Below are positions 10,681 to 36,853 of a stretch of 36,853 nucleotides of DNA, piece by piece. Source of the DNA: an uncultured Brachyspira sp. (GTDB taxonomy: Bacteria > Spirochaetota > Brachyspiria > Brachyspirales > Brachyspiraceae); contig NZ_CALXYQ010000031.1 in assembly GCF_944393015.1 (NCBI RefSeq), positions 1-36,853 of the forward strand, given 5' to 3'. A program made the translations under genes and the position numbers. How positions within the stretch are numbered: position 1 is the stretch's first letter; each line of letters starts with the position of its first letter. The notes beneath the pieces were generated by a model. The model searched no databases. It saw only the letters and a list, made by a program, of their open reading frames with translations, and was not told the DNA's origin.

Positions 10681-11862
10681 ATGATACCTAGATTACATTT
10701 AAAAATAGTAGCAAGATTTAGAGAGGTTTTCGGACATAAAGGTGATACAAAACTTTATTTTGCTCCGGGAAGAGTTACAGTTATAGGAGAGCTTATAGAT
10801 TATTCAGACGGAGATACTATAACTTCTGCTATAGATAGAGGAACATATATAGTAGCTAGAAAAAGACCTGATAATAAAGTTAATATATATGCTCATTCTT
10901 TTAAAGCTAGAAAGTCATTTACATTAGATGATTTAGAAAAGAATAAGGAAGATGAATGGGCTATTTATTTCAAAGGTGTTTTTTCTGTACTTTTGGAAAA
11001 AGGGTACAAAATACATGGTATGGATATATTTGTCTATACTGATTTACCTTTTAATACATCTTTGGCTTCATCTAGTTCATTATGTGCTTGTTTGACTTTT
11101 GCCGCTTTGGACATAAATAATATTAAAGATGTAGAACCTATTGAAATGGCAAAATTATCTTATGAAGGTGAAATAAAGTATGCATCTCATAGAACATCTT
11201 TAAGTGATCATGTTACTATATTCTTAGCTAAAGAAAATACATTATTTTTCTTTAATATGAAAACACTTAAATATGAATATTTTGATTTCAATTTAGGTGA
11301 TTACTGTATGGCTGTTGTTAATAGTAATAAGAAAAGAACTTCCAGCGACAGTGAATATAATGCTAGAAAAAGAGAATGTGAAAATGCATTGAAGAAACTT
11401 AAAGAAAAGAAAAGTTCTTTAAAATCTTTATCTGATTTGAAAGTCAAAGATGCTGATTTTATTAAAGAAACTTTACAAAATAAAGAACAAAGAAGAGCTT
11501 TATATGTTTCTGCTGAGCAGGATAGAGTAAATCAGGCAGTTAAAGCTATTAAAAAAGGTTCTGTTAAGGACTTGGCTAATTTGATACTTAAAACTCATGA
11601 TGGTTTAAGTAAATTATATGAGGTTTCTACTGCAGAATTGGATATTTTAGTTGAAGAAGCTATGAATATGGATGGAGTTTTGGGTGCTAGAATGATAGGA
11701 ACTGGTTTCGGAGGAGGAGTTTTATTATTCCTTAAGAAAACTGAAGTTGAAAATGTTATAGAAAATTTATACACTCATTATAAAGAAAGAACTAGAAGAG
11801 ATGCTGATGTTTATATATTAAAATTATCCAGCGGTACTAGAATTCTGCCTACAGAAGAATAA
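10681..11862 (+). CDS. Galactokinase-like GHMP kinase with altered active-site motifs
   Basis: 393 aa, the usual galactokinase length and domain order. Seen: motif 1 GRVTVIGELIDYSDG (29-44; galactokinases have GEHTDY), the ATP loop LPFNTSLASSSSL (121-134; usually LPxGxGLSSSASL), Asp176 in LSDH near the expected catalytic Asp, and motif 3 ARMIGTGFGGG (336-346). The sugar-contacting His of GEHTDY is Leu here and the glycines of the ATP loop are lost. It may therefore be a kinase with another substrate, or a non-catalytic sugar sensor like yeast Gal3. GAGAG lies upstream of the ATG. No other galactose genes are adjacent. Confidence 0.7.
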   Translation: MIPRLHLKIVARFREVFGHKGDTKLYFAPGRVTVIGELIDYSDGDTITSAIDRGTYIVARKRPDNKVNIYAHSFKARKSFTLDDLEKNKEDEWAIYFKGVFSVLLEKGYKIHGMDIFVYTDLPFNTSLASSSSLCACLTFAALDINNIKDVEPIEMAKLSYEGEIKYASHRTSLSDHVTIFLAKENTLFFFNMKTLKYEYFDFNLGDYCMAVVNSNKKRTSSDSEYNARKRECENALKKLKEKKSSLKSLSDLKVKDADFIKETLQNKEQRRALYVSAEQDRVNQAVKAIKKGSVKDLANLILKTHDGLSKLYEVSTAELDILVEEAMNMDGVLGARMIGTGFGGGVLLFLKKTEVENVIENLYTHYKERTRRDADVYILKLSSGTRILPTEE

Positions 11863-11916: not shown

Positions 11917-11957
11917 CATTACAAGAACTAGCTTATATTTAAGCTAGTTTGTATTGT
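11917..11957. terminator. Long hairpin after the galK-like gene
   Basis: CATTACAA, then AACTAGCTTA (11926-11935), a 4-nt loop, TAAGCTAGTT (11940-11949), a bulge, and TTGTAATG. It is a 10-bp plus 8-bp stem, 55 bp past the galK-like stop. It lacks a clear T-tract and its right arm merges into the first unit of the repeat array, so it may be part of that array rather than a terminator. Confidence 0.4.
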
Positions 11958-12540
11958 AATGATAACCCAAGATATAAACTAGCATGTTTTAGGTTTAGTT
12001 ATAATCTATAGTAGGCGAGTTTATATTGTAGCAATAACCCAAGATATAAACAAGCATTTTTTAGATTTAGTTATAATCTATTGTTAGCGAGTTTATATCA
12101 TAGCAATAACCCAAGATATAAACGAGCAGATTATAACTTTAGTTATAATCTACTGTCAGCGAGTTTATATTGTAACAATAACCCAAGATATAAACGAGCA
12201 GATTATAATTTTAGTTATAGTTTATAGTCGGTGAGTTTATATTATAATAGTAACCAGATATAAACAAGCATGTTTTAGGTTTAGTTATAATCTATAGTAG
12301 GCGAGTTTATATCGTAACAATAACCCAAGATATAAACGAGCAGATTATAACTTTAGTTATAATCTACTGTCAGCGAGTTTATATTATAATAGTAACCAGA
12401 TATAAATAAGCATGTTTTAGGTTTAGTTATAATCTACTGTCAGCGAGTTTATATCGTAACAATAACCAAGATATAAACGAGCAGATTATAACTTTAGTTA
12501 TAATCTACTGTCAGCGAGTTTATATCGTAAAATAATAGGA
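11942..12540. repeat. Tandem array of ~72-bp palindromic repeats before prfB
   Basis: Eight full units starting at 11942, 12015, 12087, 12159, 12231, 12301, 12373 and 12443 (lengths 73, 72, 72, 72, 70, 72, 70, 71) and a partial ninth from 12514 that runs into the prfB ribosome binding site. Each unit has a first hairpin built on GTTTATATC / GATATAAAC around a CAATAACC loop. The common type adds a second, perfect hairpin GATTATAAC-TTTA-GTTATAATC; another type replaces its left arm with CATGTTTTAGG. Every unit contains TTATAAT or a close variant. The region 11863-12547 has no open frame. Function unknown; leader RNA, operator array or plain variable-number repeat are all possible. Confidence 0.85.
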
Positions 12541-12547
12541 ACGTTTT

Positions 12548-13652
12548 ATGACATTATCAGAAATTAAAGGTATAGTATCTAATATTAAAGAACAATCAGA
12601 AATATTAAGGGGGTATCTTTGACCCGGATTCTATTTATAAGAGGGTTAAAGAGATAGACGAAATATCGGCTAAAGATGATTTTTGGAATGATAATATAGC
12701 AGCTCAGAAACTTATGAAGGAGAGAATGCTTCTTCTTGATAAGATAGAGCCTGTTGAAAATTTGATAAAAAATTCTAATAATATATATGAATTGGTTGAA
12801 ATGGCTATAGAGTCAAATGATTCTGAAATGGAAAAAGAATTAGAAACTGAATGCTTAGAATTGCAGAAAGTTTTTGAGGAATTGGAAACAAAGAATTTAT
12901 TTTCAGGTGAATTTGATAGTAAGAATGCATATTTAACTTTGAATGCAGGAGCAGGCGGTACAGAAAGCTGCGATTGGGCTTCTATGCTTTCAAGAATGTA
13001 TGTAAGATTCTGTGAAAGACACGGCTTTACAGTTGAAACCACAGATGAACTTCCAGGTGATGAAGCAGGAATAAAACAGATAAGTTTTTATGTTCAGGGG
13101 CTTTATGCTTATGGATATTTACGTTCAGAAATAGGTGTTCATAGACTTGTAAGAATATCTCCTTTCGATGCTAATGCTAAAAGACATACTTCATTTGTTG
13201 CTGTTAGTGTTATGCCTGATATAGATGAAGATATTGAAATAGAAATAAACCCTGCAGACTTAAGAATAGATACTTACAGAGCTTCAGGAGCAGGCGGACA
13301 GCACGTTAATAAAACTTCATCAGCTATCAGAATAACTCATATACCAACTAATATAGTTGTTCAATGCCAGGCAGAAAGAAGCCAGCATAACAATAAAGAT
13401 ATGGCTATGAAAATGTTAAAGGCGAAACTTTATCAATTAGAAAAAGAGAAATTGGATAAAGAAAAGCAGAAAATAGCGGGAGAGAAAACAGATATAGCTT
13501 GGGGCAATCAGATTAGAAGTTATGTATTCCAGCCTTATCAGATGGTAAAAGATTTAAGAACAGGATGCGAGAGCGGAAATATGAACTCTGTAATGGATGG
13601 GAATATAGATGAATTTATATCTGCTTATCTTAAACAGCAAATAAAAAAATAA
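12548..13652 (+). CDS. prfB: Peptide chain release factor 2, with programmed +1 frameshift
   Basis: RF2 recognises UGA and UAA and releases the peptide at the ribosome. The gene is in two frames. Translation starts at ATG 12548 (AGGA upstream) and reads 24 codons to CTT at 12617-12619, then meets an in-frame TGA at 12620-12622. The site AGGGGGTATCTTTGAC is the classical RF2 frameshift signal: an internal Shine-Dalgarno-like AGGGGG three bases before CTT. After a +1 slip the frame continues from GAC at 12621 to the TAA at 13650, giving 367 aa. Seen in the main frame: SPFDANAKRHTSF (codon recognition region) and GAGGQHVNK, with the GGQ at residues about 249-251. The frameshift makes RF2 control its own level. 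Confidence 0.96.
12608..12623 (+). promoter_or_regulatory. RF2 programmed +1 frameshift site
   Basis: AGG GGG TAT CTT TGA C: an internal Shine-Dalgarno-like element, slippery CTT-T, and an in-frame UGA followed by C. It is autoregulatory: low RF2 gives slow UGA decoding and more frameshifting. Confidence 0.96.
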
Positions 13653-22733: not shown

Positions 22734-22812
22734 TAACTAAAATATTAAAATACTAAAAATATAAATTTAGTATTTTAAGTAATGTTAACATAATAAGTGA
22801 GCCAAAATATAT

Positions 22813-22860
22813 GGTAACTTTAGTTGTCATCTATTGTAGCGTAGGCGAACATAGCAATAA
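22813..22860 (+). repeat. Single degenerate copy of the prfB-leader repeat, upstream of rpe
   Basis: Shares with the 72-bp repeat, in order: AACTTTAGTT, ATCTATTGT, TAGCG and CATAGCAATAA. It ends 11 bp before the rpe start codon, merging into the AAAAGG ribosome binding site, just as the last partial unit of the array merges into the prfB site. Confidence 0.55.
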
Positions 22861-22871
22861 AAGGAAATGTC

Positions 22872-35190: not shown

Positions 35191-36582
35191 TTAATTTCCA
35201 ATCCCGAGCCTTTTTACGGCTTCTGAAATATGATCTATACCTATGATTTTTATATCTCCCGGATTTTTAATTTCTTTTACAGCCCTTTTAGATATGTACA
35301 CTTCTTTAAGAGAGAATTTCTGCATCTCTTTTATTCTTCTTTCTATGAATCTAACCGGCCTTACTTCTCCTGAAAGCCCTAATTCTCCAATATAAGCAGT
35401 AGTTCTCTGAATTGATATTCCTGACATACTTGAAGCTATTGCCATCGCTATTGCTAAATCGCTTGCAGTCTCTTTAACATTAAGACCATTGGCTACGTTT
35501 ATGTATACATCTTGATTTGAAAGATTTAAATGTGCTCTTTTTTCTAGTATCGCTATTATAATAAGAAGTCTGTATTGATCATAACCTATAGTAAGCCTTC
35601 TAGGATATCCAAATGCACTGCTTCCAACTAATGCTTCCTGCTCAACGCAAAATACTCTGCTTCCTTCTATTACAGGAGTTATAACATTTCCAGCGAATAC
35701 TGACTCATTAACACCTCTTGTAAATACTCTAGAAGGATCTTTAACTTCCATTAATCCTCTTTCTGCCATCTCGAATATACCAACTTCATCAACAGCCCCA
35801 TAACGATTTTTAACCGCTCTTAATATTCTGTATATGCCTTTATCATCTCCTTCAAAATATAATACGCAGTCTACAATATGCTCTAATATTTTAGGACCTG
35901 CTATAGTACCTTCTTTGGTTATATGTCCTACTAAAAATATTGTTATGTTTTTTAGTTTAGCAGTTTGCATCAAAGCCCAAGCACAGTTTTTTATTTGTGC
36001 CGGTGAGCCTGCTATACTGTTTGTAGACGGACTGTATATAGTTTGTATGGAGTCTATTATAGCAAGCGATGGAGTATCATCTAATAAAGTATTTATTATA
36101 TTATCACAGTTTGATTCTGAAGATATTAAAAAGTCAGAGTCTTCTAATGTGAGTCTGTCTGCTCTTAATTTTATTTGTTCAAGAGATTCTTCACCTGTGA
36201 AATAATAAACTTTTTCATTTTTAGCAATATTAGATGCAGTTTGTAAGAGTAGGGTGGACTTACCGATTCCGGGCTCTCCGCCTATTAATATAACGCTTCC
36301 CTGTACTATTCCTCCGCCCAATACTCTGTTAAGTTCATCTATATTAGTTGATATTCTAGTTCTATCATTAGTTTTTATTTTTTTTAGAGGAGTTAATGAA
36401 GCCTTGTCAGAACTTGATGATGTTGAAGTTCTTTCTCTTATGGATTTATTAGTATCCTGAGAAGGTTCTGTAAAAGGTTTTAAACTATTCCAAGAACCGC
36501 ATGAAGGACATTTGCCCATCCAATTAATAGTGCTTTCCCCGCAATTATCACATACGAATATAGTATTATTTTTCTTTGCCAT
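35191..36582 (-). CDS. radA: DNA repair protein RadA
   Basis: 463 aa, RecA-like ATPase that helps process recombination intermediates (branch migration). Seen: N-terminal zinc finger with Cys11, Cys14, Cys25, Cys28 (CDNCGES...GKCPSCGSW), a Ser-rich linker, Walker A GEPGIGKST (102-110), Walker B region LAIIDSIQT (173-181), the RadA signature KNRYG (258-262), and a Lon-like C-terminal domain (about 290-463; DVYINVANGLNVKETASDLAIA split by one residue pattern). Normal length, no missing elements. Single gene; no ribosome binding site is evident before the ATG. Confidence 0.94.
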   Translation of the reverse strand: MAKKNNTIFVCDNCGESTINWMGKCPSCGSWNSLKPFTEPSQDTNKSIRERTSTSSSSDKASLTPLKKIKTNDRTRISTNIDELNRVLGGGIVQGSVILIGGEPGIGKSTLLLQTASNIAKNEKVYYFTGEESLEQIKLRADRLTLEDSDFLISSESNCDNIINTLLDDTPSLAIIDSIQTIYSPSTNSIAGSPAQIKNCAWALMQTAKLKNITIFLVGHITKEGTIAGPKILEHIVDCVLYFEGDDKGIYRILRAVKNRYGAVDEVGIFEMAERGLMEVKDPSRVFTRGVNESVFAGNVITPVIEGSRVFCVEQEALVGSSAFGYPRRLTIGYDQYRLLIIIAILEKRAHLNLSNQDVYINVANGLNVKETASDLAIAMAIASSMSGISIQRTTAYIGELGLSGEVRPVRFIERRIKEMQKFSLKEVYISKRAVKEIKNPGDIKIIGIDHISEAVKRLGIGN

Positions 36583-36659: not shown

Positions 36660-36853
36660 TTATGGTTTAGTAAATAAATTTACTAAATGCTCACAAGTTT
36701 TTTATTTCTTTAATTTATTTATAAAAAATTATTCGCTTAAAATATATAACAAATAAATTTGTTATATGCTCATAATTTTTTTATTTCTTTAATTTATTTA
36801 TAAAAAATTATTCGCTTAAAATATATAACAAATAAATTTGTTATATGCTCATA
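36660..36853. repeat. 79-bp tandem repeat with variable palindromes, running off the right edge
   Basis: One full unit (36702-36780) and most of a second (36781-36853) are nearly identical, period 79 bp; an older, diverged unit end precedes them. Each unit holds a palindrome of two 10-bp arms around AA: TATAACAAAT / ATTTGTTATA in the two good units, TTTAGTAAAT / ATTTACTAAA (from 36666) in the older one. TGCTCA follows every palindrome. It lies upstream of radA (gap 36583-36853) and continues past the window. No open frame. Confidence 0.75.

Follow-up and report, generated by a model that had tools for sequence, protein, structure and literature searches.

The window analysed here, the whole 36,853-nt stretch of a draft contig from an uncultured Brachyspira sp., carries galK (galactokinase, 10681–11862, plus strand, with Pfam GalKase_gal_bdg and GHMP kinase domains) and prfB (release factor 2, 12548–13652, plus strand, with Pfam PCRF and RF-1), and a tandem array lies between them at 11942–12535 on the same strand. 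Tandem Repeats Finder (TRF) gave 8.3 copies at a period of 72 bp (score 733, some units being 70–71 bp), and also reported higher-order periods of 142 and 214. Reading along the sequence, the galK stop at 11862 is followed by the array, whose last half unit reaches the AGGA at 12537–12540, and the prfB ATG at 12548 starts seven bases further on. The initial annotation, which placed eight and a half 72-bp repeats in the leader or promoter region of prfB and let them run into the ribosome binding site, agrees, as to an array in the leader of prfB or between the two cistrons, with the TRF result, the sequence and a covariance model (R1, described below), by which the array consists of eight hairpin units and a ninth, half unit that merges into the Shine–Dalgarno sequence. 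Within prfB, an in-frame TGA at 12620 belongs to a CTT-TGA frameshift site preceded by AGGGGG (+1 site TATCTTTGA, 12614–12622).

The hairpin array between galK and prfB

The natural unit of the array is a hairpin inside a hairpin, with P1 (GATATAAAC/GTTTATATC) around P2 (AGATTATAAC/GTTATAATCT). Single units folded far better than their shuffled versions (z = −5.2 and −5.7), thus the fold is not due to chance, and the hairpin potential ascribed to every unit in the initial annotation takes this nested form. P1 kept 9 of 9 pairs in all eight units, and P2 was complete (10/10) in four, the remaining four having 6–7 of these 10 pairs. All units lie on the plus strand and were placed by R1, with pairing counted in each. 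P2 is degenerate in unit 1 (11962–12042, 7/10 pairs, with TAGC for GAGC), unit 2 (12034–12114, 6/10), unit 5 (12248–12328, 7/10) and unit 7 (12390–12470, 7/10). Units 3 (12106–12186, 79.3 bits), 6 (12320–12400, 77.2 bits) and 8 (12461–12540, 81.9 bits) are intact, and unit 4 (12178–12258) has all 10 P2 pairs and GTGA for GCGA in its core; in unit 8, P1 to P1′ spans 12470–12526 and the tail runs into the AGGA. Amplification probably copied two and three units at a time as blocks, with broken units among them, since unlike and like units alternate along the array and TRF also finds the periods 142 and 214. The array cannot be blamed on the draft assembly, because similar arrays occupy the same place in a one-contig genome (G019) and a two-contig genome (G012).

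The TATAAT-like box that the initial annotation noted in each unit is incidental: it is simply the P2 arm GTTATAATCT, other families of the element have no such box, and promoter-like matches in the array region stood at chance level (9 against 7.0 ± 2.2 expected). An array of TATAAT promoters was therefore rejected. No plus-strand terminator was predicted in the array.

The galK–prfB spacer measured 19–48 bp in ten element-free congeners, 213–686 bp in the seven prfB loci with hairpins (the window counted in) and 92–181 bp in a few decayed or intermediate loci; four prfB loci that are cut by contig ends or have no clear spacer were kept apart from these ranges. Such short gaps where the element is missing suggest cotranscription of prfB with galK, and, as ten congeners have prfB 19–48 bp after galK, prfB expression in the genus does not require the array. 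The number of units before prfB ranges from 0 to 8 from species to species, so the expected variation in copy number, proposed for strains, was found at the species level, the level of our sampling.

Fold and families of the dispersed element

The unit belongs to a non-coding element of ∼75 nt, for which we built two covariance models, R1 from an alignment of 21 diverse copies and R2 from 108 members. In the source genome R1 gave 54 matches at E < 0.02 and R2 gave 92 at E < 0.01 (∼90 places), E-values that are rough, with members of one family being non-independent. With R1, 14 of 20 congeners held 17–70 copies per genome and the other six held 0–2, and none was found in 12 genomes of other genera. 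A plain DNA search likewise recovered further copies elsewhere in the source genome and in 16 congeners, and no copies in genomes of other genera. The element is present in most Brachyspira species sampled, and the named records that carry it are from Brachyspira only. Rfam returned no match in the window at the gathering threshold, nor any at E ≤ 1 for seven element loci, a scan of IMG/VR for a phage origin with one exact pattern gave no match, and the literature searched contained no account of such a repeat or riboswitch in Brachyspira. The prfB array is one local expansion of a genus-wide dispersed hairpin-repeat family; hence, with dozens of copies elsewhere, it is probably not a switch specific to prfB. 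Of the congeners with the shortest galK–prfB gaps (loci L059, L060, L062, L064, L070 and L072), most (G001, G006, G009, G014 and G018) carry 0–2 copies genome-wide, and thus a single Brachyspira clade may hold the bulk of the family.

Two more sites lie in the window itself. A single element at 22787–22865 (plus strand, R1 and R2) occupies the gap between rnc (RNase III) and rpe, genes assigned by Pfam and context, and its tail abuts the rpe Shine–Dalgarno sequence; with the RNase III gene beside a long hairpin, autoregulation by cleavage may occur. A second tandem array of another family with another stem (36672–36853, minus strand, period 79, 2.3 copies by TRF, with R1 and R2 matches at 36710–36789 and 36809–36853) is cut by the contig end. 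On the same strand as this second array, 35191–36582 is a gene with a RadA-like domain set. A different repeat of ∼300 bp (locus L015, 2103–2415; G000:C56:4102–4415) lies outside the long ORFs called at that locus and has many genus-wide matches at 70–75% identity.

The consensus fold comprises P1 of 9 pairs, a GA/GA step, a GC/GC step, a 3′-side bulge of 7–8 nt, P2 of 10 pairs, a short loop and a single-stranded tail, AGCAATAATA. In the 21-copy alignment, double-sided changes occurred at 11 of 21 pairs, and 94.8% of cells paired, compared with 83.1% after shuffling and 29–43% after sliding. Among 99 distinct members there were 304 double-changed cells against 62 in shuffled controls, in an alignment that was fitted to the model and leans towards structure. 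On the element strand G-U pairs exceeded A-C mismatches (117 versus 24; 62 of the G-U pairs represent one inherited U-G pair, without which the count is 55 versus 24), and this excess indicates that the element strand is constrained, whether as RNA or as single-stranded DNA. A K-turn was rejected by reasoning from the consensus fold, in which the GA/GA step stands two GC pairs away from the bulge and the geometry that defines a K-turn is lacking.

Stems are unrelated across families (A, GATAAAC/GTTTATC; B, AAAAAATC/GATTTTTT; C, AAAAATTGT/ACAATTTTT), and the same holds for the P1 ends, which read ATAAAC/GTTTAT in family A. Family D has an extra GCC/GGC step, and families E and F could also be told apart. 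Despite the unrelated stems, GAGC...GCGA recurs, as does the A-rich tail in most families, and what the repeat conserves is a fold and not a sequence. Family A has TTTAAAG as its 5′ flank and AGCAATAATA as its 3′ flank; TTATTATTGCTA, the inverse of the tail, is found ∼60 nt upstream of some family A copies and is missing from others. Members occur singly, in tandem or nested in one another, and at several loci families B and C are nested in family A at one point, between CAGCTA and GTTTATCGC.

Position relative to genes and duplicated gene ends

Mapped elements lie mostly between called ORFs. In codirectional gaps the majority point with the genes, and some elements are antisense or convergent. 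Among 70 sites, a start codon with a Shine–Dalgarno sequence followed within 40 nt in the sense direction 21 times and in the antisense direction never, several of the 21 being orthologues; in most of these 21 the tail abuts the Shine–Dalgarno sequence directly, and this arrangement is seen in about a dozen distinct genes. Other elements come after stop codons. This non-random sense placement, 21 against 0, could reflect a leader function.

At four loci (an M28 peptidase gene, a terS-like gene, moxR and a locus in genome G008) about the last 15–80 bp of the host gene is repeated after each tail, so that N hairpins are accompanied by N + 1 gene ends. Comparing the last with the first gene end, we counted 6 synonymous and 0 non-synonymous codon changes at the G008 locus, and 14 synonymous and 7 non-synonymous changes over six loci, where random change would be 18–33% synonymous. 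As the changes are mainly synonymous, at least some of the last copies were coding until recently. This is explained if an allele bearing an array recombined into one that lacked the element, and insertion of a cassette with a foreign gene end would also account for it. In genome G008, two near-identical tandem arrays were also seen (L256, G008:C1:2731995–2732748, 111 bp × 7; L257, G008:C1:2210920–2211475, 156 bp × 4), and in L257 the final 20-odd codons of a host gene are copied in each 156-bp unit.

An orthologous site after a small gene illustrates the differences between species: G012 has family B inside family A, G013 has C inside A, and G002, G022, G024 and G018 have no element. Empty and occupied sites were compared at the prfB, terS-like and M28 peptidase loci. 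In G002 and G022 this small gene lies immediately before a terminase-like gene. Over loci L226–L242, a terminase-like large subunit comes directly after the 157-aa gene in G002 and G022; in others, elements or a rearrangement lie between the two; the 157-aa gene locus is possibly part of a prophage or a gene transfer agent.

Origin of the array and rival readings

We hold it probable that the array arose by local tandem amplification of a Brachyspira-specific, dispersed, fold-defined non-coding repeat that is mobile or recombining. In this process the element would have entered the short galK–prfB gap in part of the genus, its tail would have come to rest against the prfB Shine–Dalgarno sequence, and slippage or unequal recombination would then have multiplied the block in tandem, broken and intact units alike. 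Any effect of the array on prfB would be secondary. Spread through the genome would probably proceed by recombination of hairpin-bearing DNA, aided by genetic exchange between strains that would also carry copies of host gene 3′ ends; such mobility is deduced from sampling at the species level, which is blind to recent movement within species. The B. hyodysenteriae genome paper gives a gene transfer agent, which moves ∼7-kb fragments between strains, as the main route of gene acquisition (PMC2650404). That agent would supply the exchange by which repeats spread.

The main rival is a cis-acting RNA leader, in which the hairpin with its free AU-rich tail would control translation or stability of many genes, prfB included, and the array would multiply the effect. 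Its best evidence is the placement before Shine–Dalgarno sites, 21 sense against 0 antisense with the tail against the Shine–Dalgarno sequence in about a dozen distinct genes, together with the strong covariation and the sense-strand G-U excess. Nevertheless, many copies follow stop codons, sit in convergent gaps or run antisense to the genes on both sides, the genes concerned are unrelated in function (prfB, rpe, a TPR protein, an M28 peptidase, an FkbM methyltransferase and phage-like genes), P2 is broken in half of the prfB units, the element is absent before prfB in many congeners, and no Rfam family matched at E ≤ 1, so that we regard this reading as unlikely overall. The initial annotation had gone further and treated the array as special to prfB, with a copy number that could tune prfB expression. 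The position directly before the Shine–Dalgarno sequence of an autoregulated gene and the unequal copy number among species would suit such a role, but tens of other loci have the same element next to genes of many unrelated kinds, upstream or downstream of them, half of the units are degenerate, the intact frameshift site does not depend on the array, and element-free congeners keep prfB 19–48 bp after galK; we give this proposal very little credence.

Alternatively, the element could be moved, in an integron-like or target-primed manner, by a dedicated enzyme able to recognise how single-stranded DNA or RNA is folded, with the gene 3′ ends as target-site duplications or cassettes. This would accord with units that vary in sequence and keep structure and 3′ tail, with nested insertion at one point, with host sequence of about 15–80 bp duplicated after the tail, and with the chiefly synonymous changes between first and last gene ends (all six in G008). 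Searches for a partner among 26 Brachyspira genomes yielded no consistent candidate, whether RAYT, reverse transcriptase or integron integrase. The Y1 (IS200-like) transposase PF01797 was found in none of the 26, with 5 of 14 control genomes positive; reverse transcriptase PF00078 was found in only 7 of 26 and not in G012, G003, G019 or G010, which hold 47–70 copies of the element (70 in G012); and the best match to integron integrase TIGR02249 scored 91 bits against a cut-off of 265, with similar sub-threshold matches in all 14 controls. The same N + 1 pattern arises when an array that already exists enters an empty allele by homologous recombination, and we consider a dedicated enzyme improbable. 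In a broader form, the repeats might represent a fold-defined class of bacterial mobile element, in which some machinery would recognise tail and core, insertion would occur at gene starts and ends, families would nest at one hairpin point, and host gene 3′ ends would be captured and replaced; this we put forward tentatively and consider unlikely.

Four known systems come closest to the element. REP, BIME and REPIN sequences are short extragenic palindromes of high copy number, located mostly in unidirectional and convergent gaps and plausibly transcribed (PMC3733652). The Brachyspira element is likewise a high-copy extragenic palindrome (92 matches at E < 0.01, the mapped ones mostly between ORFs), but it is larger (∼75 nt), has an internal GA/GA-GC core with a bulge, is arranged head-to-tail in one orientation, and comprises families with unrelated stems; moreover, no GTAG/CGTC tag was found at the hairpin base in family A flanks, and no Y1 transposase in the 26 genomes. 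MITE-like repeats such as RUP, ERIC/IRU, Correia and bcr1 of Bacillus cereus are dispersed, non-coding, hairpin-forming, species-variable and sometimes nested, all of which applies here. Unlike them, the Brachyspira element may lack consistent terminal inverted repeats, with the inverse of the tail upstream of some family A copies, and target duplications that are short and of fixed length, its duplicated flanks varying from about 15 to 80 bp; no parent transposon was found, and the element keeps its structure while its sequence changes. Integron attC sites are fold-conserved, sequence-variable hairpins with a bulge or internal loop and resemble the element in these respects; membership was rejected, as RYYYAAC/GTTRRRY ends and a cassette array are absent and integrase matches stay below the curated cut-off. 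Type III toxin–antitoxin arrays are tandem structured RNA repeats before a gene, like the prfB array in layout, and were rejected because the downstream gene is prfB and no toxin, and the repeats are dispersed genome-wide. Overall, the Brachyspira element behaves like dispersed hairpin repeats of the REP, bcr1 or MITE type, without REP tags or a known partner, and is defined by its fold.

Tens of nested, recombining copies per genome alter the picture of the genus Brachyspira. The repeat sites are ready multi-copy typing markers, and the N + 1 pattern of gene ends is a testable record of element and gene-end exchange. Moreover, that covariation preserves the fold of a dispersed repeat raises the question of whether these sequences are selfish DNA, an RNA leader, or both.
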